DNA from: Deltaproteobacteria bacterium | Lineage (GTDB): Bacteria; Bdellovibrionota; Bdellovibrionia; Bdellovibrionales; Bdellovibrionaceae | Direction of reading: 5' to 3' | NCBI GenBank assembly: GCA_017302835.1 | Contig: JAFLCC010000024.1 | Coordinates: forward strand, 1 to 42,164 | Length of the DNA: 42,164 nucleotides | Shown: positions 19,249-23,200 of the stretch, piece after piece | Layout: every line of letters starts with the position of its first letter | How positions within the stretch are numbered: the first letter of the stretch is position 1 | Made by a program: the position numbers and the translations under genes | Notes under the pieces: generated by a model | Databases searched by the model: none | Seen by the model: the letters and a program-made list of their open reading frames with translations, nothing else | Told to the model about the DNA's origin: nothing

Positions 19249-19310
19249 ATGAATTTTGCGAACGAGATATTTGCGTTGAAAAACGAAAATTAATATTCTA
19301 AATTTTGAAT

Positions 19311-20894
19311 ATGAAAAGTATAAAAATTATCAACGTCAAAAAAAATCAATTACTTTGTCTTTCTCTTATATCGTTGTGGTTAGTTTCCTGTTCTCATTTG
19401 ATGGAATCAAGTAAAGAAGTTCCAACCACGACACCAACAGCCGTTGATGTTAGCAAAGCAAGTACAACAGTGCCTGCCGCTGAACCCACCAAAGTGGATC
19501 CATCTGGACCCGGTGTGGATTCAAATAAAGGCTTAACTTCTTTTCACCTTAACGAAGATAAATCCACAGCACCTCCTGTTGCTGAATTTGATTCCATTCC
19601 CTCGGAGGTAAATCCTTTGGTGGATAAATGGATTGCCTACTTTCAGGGGCGTGGTCGTCCTCACATGGAAAGATATTTGGCACGTTCCACTCGTTACGAA
19701 CTTTTAATGAAAAAAGTTTTAAGAGATAATGGTTTGCCGGAAGATTTATTTTACATAGCCCTTATTGAATCAGGCTTTACCTCCAGCGCCACTAGCCATG
19801 CGTCGGCAGTTGGTTATTGGCAATTTATCAGAGGCACGGGAAAAAGATATGGCCTGGAAATTAATAAATTTGTGGATGAACGCAGAGACCCCGTGGTGGC
19901 CACTCAAGCGGCCGCAGATTACTTCCGTGAACTTTATAAAATGTTTGGATCTTGGTACCTTGCAATGGCTTCTTACAATGTAGGCGAAGGAAAAGTCCGA
20001 CGTGAGTCTGTAAAAAATGATACCAGAGATTTTTGGGAAATTGCCAAAAAGAAACGGTTACCTAAGGAAACAGTGAACTATATTCCTAAATACATTGCCG
20101 CCAGGATGATTGCTAAGAATCCTGATAAATATGGCTTTGATGGCATAGATTACATGCCGCCTATCGAGTTTGATTCGATGACATTTGATGCTCCCATAAA
20201 CCTAAAACAGATGGCAGAGAAAATGAATTATAATTATGAAGATTTGAAAGCATTAAATCCAAAATTCAAAGGAGAAGTGGCAACTCTTTCAAATAATAAA
20301 TTGAGTTTAAGAATTCCCGTTGGTTCCATGGAGCAGGCCAAAATAGCGGCAGCTGAATCGAAAGTTGATAAAGTAGAATTCATTGCAGACACAGGAAATA
20401 CTCAAGTTTACAAAATTAGAGGTGGAGACTCGCTTCACACGATTGCTAGGAAATTTAGAACCACGGTAGCCTATTTACGAGATCTAAATGATCTTCCAAG
20501 AAAAAAGAAATTACGAGCAGGATCACGCATTTTTGTCCCAGATCGTTCGAGAGCTCAACAGCGAACTCAAGTGGCAGTAAGTCAAGCGGCCAAACAAGAA
20601 CATCCAGCTCAGGCGAAAACGGAAATTTTATCTGACGGTTTGGTTAAATACTATATAGTTCAAAATGGAGATTCATTATTTAGTATTGCTCAAAAGTACA
20701 ATACCTCTGTACAGACTTTAAAAAAAATAAATCAAATTCGTAGAGGAAGAGTATTAAAAGTGGGAATTAAATTAAAACTTCCAAATGTAGCTTCTGAAAA
20801 AGAATCAAAAGATAAAGTAGAACCAGTAGTAAACACTTTAGATTCGTCACAGAAAAAAGTAAAGAAAACCCATCTTAAAATTGTTAAAAGATAA
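19311..20894 (+). CDS. mltD: MltD-like lipoprotein lytic transglycosylase with LysM repeats
   Basis: A 527-residue lipoprotein, lipobox LVSC with Cys27, then a Thr/Pro/Ala-rich linker. The SLT domain has catalytic Glu in IALIESGFTSSATSHASAVGYWQFI. Two LysM repeats follow: YKIRGGDSLHTIARKF and YYIVQNGDSLFSIAQKY, which bind peptidoglycan. It has a Lys-rich C-terminus. ATG 19311 was preferred over TTG 19305. It starts 62 bases after slt on the same strand; a shared function in wall remodelling is clear. Confidence 0.92.
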   Translation: MKSIKIINVKKNQLLCLSLISLWLVSCSHLMESSKEVPTTTPTAVDVSKASTTVPAAEPTKVDPSGPGVDSNKGLTSFHLNEDKSTAPPVAEFDSIPSEVNPLVDKWIAYFQGRGRPHMERYLARSTRYELLMKKVLRDNGLPEDLFYIALIESGFTSSATSHASAVGYWQFIRGTGKRYGLEINKFVDERRDPVVATQAAADYFRELYKMFGSWYLAMASYNVGEGKVRRESVKNDTRDFWEIAKKKRLPKETVNYIPKYIAARMIAKNPDKYGFDGIDYMPPIEFDSMTFDAPINLKQMAEKMNYNYEDLKALNPKFKGEVATLSNNKLSLRIPVGSMEQAKIAAAESKVDKVEFIADTGNTQVYKIRGGDSLHTIARKFRTTVAYLRDLNDLPRKKKLRAGSRIFVPDRSRAQQRTQVAVSQAAKQEHPAQAKTEILSDGLVKYYIVQNGDSLFSIAQKYNTSVQTLKKINQIRRGRVLKVGIKLKLPNVASEKESKDKVEPVVNTLDSSQKKVKKTHLKIVKR

Positions 20895-20931: not shown

Positions 20932-20937
20932 GAAAAT

Positions 20938-20976
20938 AAAAAGTCTACAGTTATCCTTCATGATATTCTGTAGACT
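20938..20976 (-). terminator. intrinsic terminator of the riboswitch RNA
   Basis: On the minus strand AGTCTACAG (20976 inward, as the complement of CTGTAGACT) pairs with CTGTAGACT (20950-20942): 9 perfect pairs with a 17-base loop, followed by TTTTTATTTT. It ends the ncRNA before the convergent mltD gene. Confidence 0.85.
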
Positions 20977-21050
20977 AAGGGGAATGAAACCAATCCATGA
21001 ATATGTTTTTTTGTTTTGATCCTTCCATTTGTCACTCCGAATTTCCCTCG

Positions 21051-21156
21051 GGTTCTTACCTTTGGTAGCTGGCTGGCTTTGAATAAACATTAGCCCCTAT
21101 AGCTTTGCGTCTTTATCTTTCGATAAATTTGCCTTGAGGCAAAGGAAGGTAAAACC
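21051..21156 (-). promoter_or_regulatory. c-di-GMP-I (GEMM) riboswitch aptamer
   Basis: Minus-strand features in order: P1 5' strand GGTTTTACCTT (21156-21146); GGCAAA; P2 stem TTTATC-GAAA-GATAAA with a GAAA tetraloop (21127-21112); the conserved GACGCAAAGC (21111-21102); a P3 arm with GGGGCTAA and AGCCAGCTACC; and the P1 3' strand AAGGTAA-G-AACC (21062-21051), giving 11 P1 pairs with one bulge. The GAAA tetraloop plus GACGCAAAGC is diagnostic of the GEMM-I class that binds cyclic di-GMP. Confidence 0.85.
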
Positions 21157-21238
21157 AATTAAGGTTATTTACCTCTAGGAAACCTCCTTTATTTGGGCGT
21201 CGTCTTCCGTTTGACTTTCAGATCCAATATTTCAGAAT

Positions 21239-21269: not shown

Positions 21270-21364
21270 GATATGAGTTCATCATACTATAAGTAGAGAA
21301 AAAATCCATAAAAAAATTATAAATAGACTGTAATATCATATAGTTGTATCATTTTGATAATTCT

Positions 21365-21394: not shown

Positions 21395-21640
21395 TCAAGG
21401 GGATGGCGTCTTAATTTTGGTAGAAATTCTTTTAGAGAAAATCCATAATGATTTTTTTATTTTTAATTCCAAAGCTGCACACAAGCCAAGTATCGCTTGT
21501 TCAAGCATTTCCACCTTTTCTGTTTCTATTTTACTCCGAAGTTTTTTAATCAATTCATCTACTTTAATGTAGTTACATCTGTCTACTTTAAATACACCCC
21601 TGCGCCAATCTATCCTACTCTCCGTAAAACCCTCCTGCAA
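21395..21640 (-). CDS. possible small protein, 81 aa or less
   Basis: The frame reads KVDELIKKLRSKIETEKVEMLEQAILGLCAALELKIKK, which looks like a genuine amphipathic helical protein. However, the only start in the frame is a TTG at 21640 without a spaced ribosome site; an AGGAGG lies just inside the frame with no standard start codon after it. It overlaps the longer upstream reading frame of the plus-strand secreted protein only if that protein started at 21497, which I do not favour. A hairpin follows the stop. It may be a decayed gene. Confidence 0.3.
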   Translation of the reverse strand: MQEGFTESRIDWRRGVFKVDRCNYIKVDELIKKLRSKIETEKVEMLEQAILGLCAALELKIKKSLWIFSKRISTKIKTPSP

Positions 21641-21691
21641 CGTTCAATACTCTCAATAAAAAAAGGCATGCTCTTTGCTCAATCAAATTAT

Positions 21692-23200
21692 ATGATAAAA
21701 TTGTATCTTCAATTGATGGTTTTCATTTTAAGCTTGGTTATTGGGACTGTTGTACCGGCATCTGCGGAGAACTCTTGCACGAAAATATATTCTACTCGTT
21801 CGACTCAATTTGACAGACACTGGTTAGTCGATATTGAAGAAAAGTATCGAAACGCTCGAGATTCCTTGTACCAAATAAACTCTTTTTGGCCTGAATCACC
21901 AGACCCGTATCACAAATGGGCATACCGCTTAGCCGTGCGCCATGCAGCAGGGGAAGACCACGCTGTACTGGCCCAAAAGCATTTGGGTTTTGAACTTTTG
22001 AAAGATAAATATAGCTCTGTGGTGATGCGTCCACCAAAGAGTCTAGCTCTCTTTATTAAAAATTTTGAAAAATGGAAAAAGGAAATTCAAATAAAACCTG
22101 AAGATAATCTGGAACTAGTGTTTATCTTCATCAAGTCCAACCTGAATCGTCTCCCAACCAAATTTGACGACTACCTCATTGTTAGAGCCAGCGAAGCTCA
22201 TAAGCCAGGAGTATGGCCAGATCCTGCCCTCTATAAAAATATTTCTGATTCCTACTTTAATTCACAGTTACCTCCCAATGTTTTTATTGAACTGTTTAGT
22301 AGAGGTTTATTTCAAGTGCCCGGCGGAGTTTTCTTCGATCACGAGGTAGCCCATCTAACCGAACTTCTTTCTCAATCTGCCCAAGGAAAAGATTCGTTGA
22401 TCGCCCAAATTCGTCAATATGGTTATCGGCAAAGGCAGAAAAAAACAATTGATGAAAAAAAGAAATTTCGAGAATCTCTACTCTTTGAATTTTTCGCCTT
22501 ACCTGAAATTACGAAATCTGATCAAATTGAAAAATTAGCACGGCAATACGGCTTTTCTAAGGGTGCCACTTTAGAGACTTTGGTTAAATCCATTTCAAAT
22601 AAATTATCAGCTCTACCCCAAAGTGAAATGTTGACCACTGTTGAAGCTTTTGCAAAAAACGTCTCTCCGCTTATTTACCGTCAGGGTGGCGCGAGCCGCG
22701 ACAGCTACGGTTTTTATGAAAATCATGCACATTTTAGCTTGCATAATGTCATGTTGGAAGAAAATGGAATTCAGGTTCCGCCGGACCCTGAAGTAAATCT
22801 CTTAAGTCCACGACGTGTATCAACTGATTCTTTGATAGGTTATCTTCGCGATCTAGAAACTGGATTTCCAGAATTACGCAATTCGAGATCTCTCTCGACA
22901 ACCCTTTATTATATGGAACACAGTTGGTCCCCGAAAATGAAAGTCAGCCCAGAAGAGTATCGACGGATGGCGGTTCATTTTTTCGCTGCTCGAATGTCGC
23001 GAATACTGATGGCCCTCACGACGGCTCTTGATCTCGGTTTAACCCCTGTCCAAACGCATCGCGAAGGTCTATCTGAAAGATTCAACCCGAATTCAGCTCT
23101 GGGACAATACTTAGATAGTTACTTACCAAAAAATTCTCCAATCAGAGAAGCATTCAACTTAATAAAAAAAGAAAAACGAAAAGACCTCCCTAACAAATGA
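21692..23200 (+). CDS. secreted protein with HExxH motif
   Basis: The 502-residue product starts MIKLYLQLMVFILSLVIGTVVPASAENS, a good signal peptide, so it is exported. At residues 217-221 it reads HEVAH inside VFFDHEVAHLTELL, the HExxH form used by zinc metallopeptidases; GFYENHAHFSLHNVM further on adds histidines. No known peptidase family is recognised and the motif may be structural. The start is uncertain: ATG 21668 is also possible, and a frame open to 21497 is not supported. No ribosome site is clear at either ATG. The gene ends 104 bases before the convergent mrp gene. Function unknown. Confidence 0.7.
   Translation: MIKLYLQLMVFILSLVIGTVVPASAENSCTKIYSTRSTQFDRHWLVDIEEKYRNARDSLYQINSFWPESPDPYHKWAYRLAVRHAAGEDHAVLAQKHLGFELLKDKYSSVVMRPPKSLALFIKNFEKWKKEIQIKPEDNLELVFIFIKSNLNRLPTKFDDYLIVRASEAHKPGVWPDPALYKNISDSYFNSQLPPNVFIELFSRGLFQVPGGVFFDHEVAHLTELLSQSAQGKDSLIAQIRQYGYRQRQKKTIDEKKKFRESLLFEFFALPEITKSDQIEKLARQYGFSKGATLETLVKSISNKLSALPQSEMLTTVEAFAKNVSPLIYRQGGASRDSYGFYENHAHFSLHNVMLEENGIQVPPDPEVNLLSPRRVSTDSLIGYLRDLETGFPELRNSRSLSTTLYYMEHSWSPKMKVSPEEYRRMAVHFFAARMSRILMALTTALDLGLTPVQTHREGLSERFNPNSALGQYLDSYLPKNSPIREAFNLIKKEKRKDLPNK

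Follow-up and report, generated by a model that had tools for sequence, protein, structure and literature searches.

The closest described counterpart of the RNA analysed here is merRNA of Bdellovibrio bacteriovorus HD100, a 445-nt transcript mapped to positions 1073741-1074185 of the reverse strand, with an expression of 2,038,479 RPKM in attack phase and 407 RPKM in growth phase (Karunker et al. 2013, PMC3627812). Reported to be dominant among the small RNAs of attack-phase Bdellovibrio, it is an odd RNA, namely a riboswitch without a gene that reaches rRNA-like levels in the attack phase of a predator. merRNA was described as non-coding, with no evidence of conservation beyond the Bdellovibrio lineage (PMC3627812). 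Other known systems are similar in part. Usual members of the c-di-GMP-I riboswitch family (RF01051) precede a conventional gene. The B12 riboswitches of M. tuberculosis carry a translated uORF on the same RNA, and this uORF regulates a long downstream gene (PMC11260477). In leader peptides and attenuators of the peTrpL type, a short ORF with a Shine-Dalgarno (SD) sequence ends near a terminator (PMC7298713).

The window, i.e. the whole stretch of 42,164 nt under study, is part of a 3.63-Mb genome of the Bdellovibrionaceae in which a c-di-GMP-I (GEMM-I) aptamer is present only once. The aptamer is located at positions 21061-21143 on the minus strand and matches RF01051 over the full model (1-87) with 71.5 bits (cmscan/Infernal, E 3.2e-12), compared to a gathering cut-off of 35 bits. 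The covariance model thus recovers the aptamer that the first-pass annotation had read from the letters, including the GAAA-capped P2 and GACGCAAAGC. Matches occur once per genome and are missing from 14 control genomes, and the signal is therefore far above chance. The base presumably corresponding to aptamer position 20, assigned via the Rfam alignment and the aptamer structure, is G in the window, and 86 of the 87 readable loci have a G there. A G at this position distinguishes binders of the c-di-GMP type from those of the cGAMP type. The window RNA can be expected with good confidence to bind c-di-GMP. It shares the aptamer sequence and fold as well as the presumed G20 with RF01051 riboswitches but, in contrast to their usual members, precedes only an ORF of 17 codons.

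The aptamer is followed by an intrinsic terminator (20942-20976, minus strand) with a 9-bp stem and a 17-nt loop. Its stem arms are AGTCTACAG (20976-20968) and CTGTAGACT (20950-20942), and the adjoining T tract TTTTATTTT is found at 20933-20941. The 9-bp stem and the T tract agree with the first-pass annotation, whereas the gap to the aptamer is 84 nt and not within 75 nt as proposed there. The terminator was called by our own reading and a script; a scan of the window with default settings did not detect it. A lax terminator test is passed by 84 of the 89 aptamer loci of the order, yet also by 101 of 408 random windows. Upstream of the aptamer, a likely promoter was read by eye at 21281-21309 (minus strand; -35 box ATGGAT at 21309-21304, 17-nt spacer, -10 box TATGAT at 21286-21281), from which transcription would likely start near 21274. 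The pattern NTGGAT-N17/18-TATNAT or TAGACT recurs upstream in the sequences of the genus that were read by eye, and a sigma-70 scan with default settings listed no minus-strand promoter site in the window.

The first gene beyond the T tract is mltD (19305-20894, plus strand; SLT and LysM domains), which is convergent, as previously annotated, and ends 38 nt past the T tract. The minus strand of the window holds no long co-oriented gene before the terminator, which confirms that a conventional target gene is absent. The earlier statement that there is no gene downstream is nevertheless probably wrong, since a short ORF with a conserved frame, here termed ORF2, occupies the interval. On the other side, a probably exported protein of 505 aa without a Pfam family at E 1e-5 is encoded divergently from the RNA (21683-23200, plus strand).

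To place the window RNA among its relatives, one genome (G060) is central, which we take to be that of B. bacteriovorus HD100. Its aptamer (1073868-1073951, minus strand) is enclosed by the published merRNA interval, in line with the merRNA counterpart that had been suggested earlier. Of 60 relatives sampled, 46 contain exactly one c-di-GMP-I aptamer, and the same holds for 89 of the order's 141 genomes. A gene for MltD lies at most 6 kb away at 35 of the 46 loci and one for an Mrp-type ATPase at 27, while 22 loci have both. The mltD/mrp vicinity is thus a feature of the window and most relatives examined, and the synteny expected earlier for a locus next to cell-wall enzymes is indeed present. 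Based on the matching HD100 coordinates and on the 3' motif and neighbors common among relatives, the window RNA is almost certainly an orthologue of merRNA. Like merRNA of HD100 (PMC3627812), it is a single-copy aptamer RNA with its own terminator and no long gene. The massive attack-phase expression is documented for HD100 alone. The merRNA gene is spread over an order and hence more widely than the published Bdellovibrio lineage.

This distribution also bears on the possibility that the RNA is a relic riboswitch whose target gene was lost, which would agree with the minus strand being free of a long gene before the terminator. However, the RNA is conserved in 89 genomes, its P2 and P0 stems covary, and it is abundantly expressed in HD100; this reading was therefore rejected and is given next to no probability.

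The terminator is preceded by the C-rich sequence GGUUUCAUUCCCCUUAG. A 20-nt form of it was found in 20 stretches of the genome collection; 19 of these bear the name Bdellovibrio, Pseudobdellovibrio or Bdellovibrionales. The remaining one is a metagenome-assembled genome, and its contig is the one of relative G084. The plasmid collection searched gave no match. One exact 17-nt match in the viral collection (L188), which lacks an aptamer, was taken as chance. The tested genomes that lack an aptamer match contained neither the patterns of the 3' end nor those of ORF1 (see below).

Single-copy c-di-GMP-I aptamers also occur farther out in the phylum. At loci of the phylum outside the class (L130-L167), an outer helix GAAGAGG/CCTCTTC surrounds the aptamer in 25 of 38 tested cases. 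A terminator-like hairpin often follows the aptamer there, and these loci perhaps represent a second stand-alone type. The locus L161 (genome G202) has an ORF of 212 aa with a strong SD 38 nt past the aptamer and looks like an ordinary cis-riboswitch within the same phylum. In another family of the same class, two loci (L137 and L148, genomes G270 and G272) show a 17-codon ORF with an SD, 40 nt past the aptamer.

ORF2 of the window (20975-21028, minus strand) comprises 17 codons, MEGSKQKNIFMDWFHSP followed by a stop codon that overlaps the terminator stem, and its frame is conserved across the family. It is preceded by the SD-like sequence CGGAGTG (21033-21039, minus strand), with a duplex energy of -6.1 kcal/mol against the anti-SD and a spacing of 4 nt to the ATG; its GGAG lies 6 nt upstream of the ATG. 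The HD100 counterpart, MEGTNTYKDWFHSP before the stop codon with the SD AGAGGTGT, is located inside the mapped merRNA. In ATG-anchored relatives, ORF2 spans 14 to 22 codons, and the ATG is in phase with the conserved end in 45 of 48. The frame survives 14 of 17 inferred length changes (binomial test against 1/3, P 4.7e-5; P is approximate, as the underlying tree is small and derives from the remainder of this RNA). In control intervals, the frame is kept in 6 of 21 cases (aptamer-to-ATG distance) and 3 of 26 cases (aptamer length). None of 32 distinct ORF2 linkers contains an in-frame stop, compared to 9 and 8 with a stop in the other two frames. Several relatives that lack the ATG of ORF2 possess a later in-frame ATG together with an SD. 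Exceptions are three relatives in which ORF2 is out of frame (G014, G078 and G081) and four in which its stop is absent. The published characterization of merRNA as an RNA with no conserved ORF downstream does not apply to these loci, since the ORF2 frame is conserved, HD100 included.

The conserved frame and the in-frame replacement ATGs favor translation, and ORF2 is probably translated. Clear purifying selection is not seen for the peptide itself (pN/pS 0.5-2.2; shuffle P 0.037 in one of five length classes). Synonymous changes are nearly absent from the conserved 3' end of ORF2, which points to a constraint at the RNA level in this part. An ORF of 81 aa on the minus strand upstream (21395-21640) ends with TCC CCT TGA, i.e. 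with the same last two residues (SP) as ORF2, probably by chance.

The short ORF with its SD ending near a terminator resembles the peTrpL type (PMC7298713), but no regulated gene is found on the same strand of merRNA. An attenuator could nevertheless act across strands: a ribosome at the ORF2 stop would mask a terminator arm, read-through would yield mltD antisense RNA, and c-di-GMP would thereby tune mltD. The overlap of ORF2 stop and terminator arm in the window fits this, as do 16 loci, out of 43 at which a downstream gene was called, where the first convergent gene is mltD. However, the downstream gene differs among loci and, in 11 of them, is co-oriented without belonging to one family, which makes such attenuation highly improbable.

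A second short frame, ORF1, is located upstream of the aptamer in 61 of the 89 loci of the order. In HD100, it encodes MRTHEHHDDELK up to the stop codon, has the SD GAAGGAGG and lies inside the mapped merRNA. ORF1 is absent from the window and its genus (six genomes), and the 5' part of the window RNA is apparently shorter than that of HD100 merRNA. It mostly has a strong SD, starts with ATG, GTG or TTG and ends with any stop codon, before which PPPK, PPPE or SPK is found (endings include HDHHDEPPK, HNDKSPK and LDPPPK). Third positions contain many synonymous differences among loci. In three sets of 17 (one genus), 10 and 8 sequences, ORF1 has pN/pS ratios of 0.22, 0.45 and 0.19, as opposed to 1.3-2.3 in the other two frames, and each ratio is below that of column-shuffled alignments (P 0.0017, 0.0017 and 0.005). 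Judged from these alignments, ORF1 is very likely coding in the relatives, i.e. a peptide gene. A search for copies elsewhere with a DPPPK-type pattern returned merRNA loci only. Matches of an SPK-type pattern in 8 genomes comprised five merRNA loci; the three others look unrelated. After the ORF1 stop, a short GTGA/TCAC hairpin and CACCAGGATT are found in many loci, among them L090 (HD100 merRNA nt 104-122) and its relatives.

Both frames have to be weighed against the published interpretation. Karunker et al. 2013 (PMC3627812) proposed a reservoir from the extreme abundance of merRNA: the aptamer would soak up c-di-GMP in attack phase and release it on prey entry, in which case a purely non-coding RNA would contain the ORFs as by-products of RNA constraint. 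In favor of this are the conservation of aptamer, outer helix and terminator and the lack of a conventional gene. Purifying selection on ORF1 in one frame only, mostly combined with a strong SD, and the survival of the ORF2 frame through most length changes speak against it, so that a purely non-coding reservoir appears rather unlikely. A sponge that is also translated remains compatible with the ORF evidence.

Two helices connect the region upstream of the aptamer with ORF2. P0 adjoins the aptamer stem P1; its 5' strand CCUUCC (21144-21149, minus strand) directly precedes P1, and the first G of its 3' strand GGAAGG (21021-21026, minus strand) is the G of the ORF2 ATG. All six pairs are kept in 43 of 43 aligned sequences (100% of cells), an alignment from which five members of the family were left out for a shifted or unusual sequence at this site; when these are retained, three of them (G012, G014 and G032) are incompatible with the six pairs in this register. 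P0 is supported by covariation, one pair being CG in 35, AU in 7 and UA in 1 of the sequences, and the aptamer stem P2 also covaries among relatives. The outer helix PX was predicted by RNAalifold with pair probabilities of mostly about 0.9. Its 5' strand AAGG(A)GG (21183-21189, minus strand) is SD-like without a start codon, and its 3' strand CCCCUU (20977-20982, minus strand) covers the last codons of ORF2 just before the terminator. Inside the family, PX is almost invariant and hence without covariation support.

Further pairings were considered. A helix between CCCCUUAG and CUANAGGGG of the aptamer was rejected in favor of PX, as GGGG changes to GGGA without compensation and no covariation was visible by eye. 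A CACC/GGUG hairpin over the SD region of ORF2, paired in 59-65% of cells in alignment A1, is not family-wide. At 24 loci outside family f1, no long complementarity around the aptamer was clearly beyond shuffles.

The invariance of the 3' end could also indicate a trans-acting small RNA, in which GGUUUCAUUCCCCUUAG pairs with target mRNAs and its exposure is set by c-di-GMP. This sequence is nearly invariant across genera with almost no synonymous changes, and the stretches carrying its 20-nt form are, but for one, of Bdellovibrio, Pseudobdellovibrio or Bdellovibrionales name. However, the predicted PX helix already explains CCCCUU, and trans-action is considered improbable.

In the window, the RNA is best explained as a short c-di-GMP-binding transcript with its own terminator and the aptamer in its middle that also serves as a mini-mRNA, with ORF2 ending at the terminator; we give this reading a slightly better than even chance. 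With ORF2 present in the window, and ORF1 in addition in most other genera, merRNA is probably not purely non-coding. As in M. tuberculosis (PMC11260477), riboswitch and short ORF share one RNA, but a long downstream gene is missing.

The position of the P0 3' strand at the ORF2 start makes control of translation by the ligand plausible. Binding of c-di-GMP would stabilize P1 and the adjoining P0, whose 3' strand starts at the G of the ORF2 AUG, and the RNA would then be closed, untranslated and stable, with c-di-GMP held. With falling c-di-GMP, ribosomes would translate ORF2 on the ligand-free RNA and open P0 and the predicted PX, which could leave the RNA open to decay. The closure step resembles start-site occlusion, which is typical of translation-controlling riboswitches (PMC11260477). 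When P1 was forced or forbidden in the folding, the accessibility of the start site did not change consistently; in several sequences, the AUG taken by the automatic rule was one upstream of the ORF2 start. The putative gating of ORF2 by c-di-GMP is thus put forward tentatively. The published sponge is compatible with the mini-mRNA mechanism, although not proved by it.

merRNA itself was already known; apparently new are its order-wide spread, a selected ORF1 in most loci and the frame-conserved ORF2. Neither the ORFs nor the order-wide spread are described in the literature searched, which included few subscription journals and no bioRxiv preprints. The 89 orthologous or likely orthologous loci, together with the conserved 3' motif, which is so far a family mark, provide a resource. 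Extended to the order, merRNA may be a micro-mRNA that is gated by c-di-GMP and encodes one or two peptides of about 9-22 residues. Translation of these peptides, or stalling at their proline-rich ends, would determine if the RNA remains folded with c-di-GMP held; we consider this possible, at somewhat less than an even chance. If merRNA encodes peptides, the sponge model would need revision.
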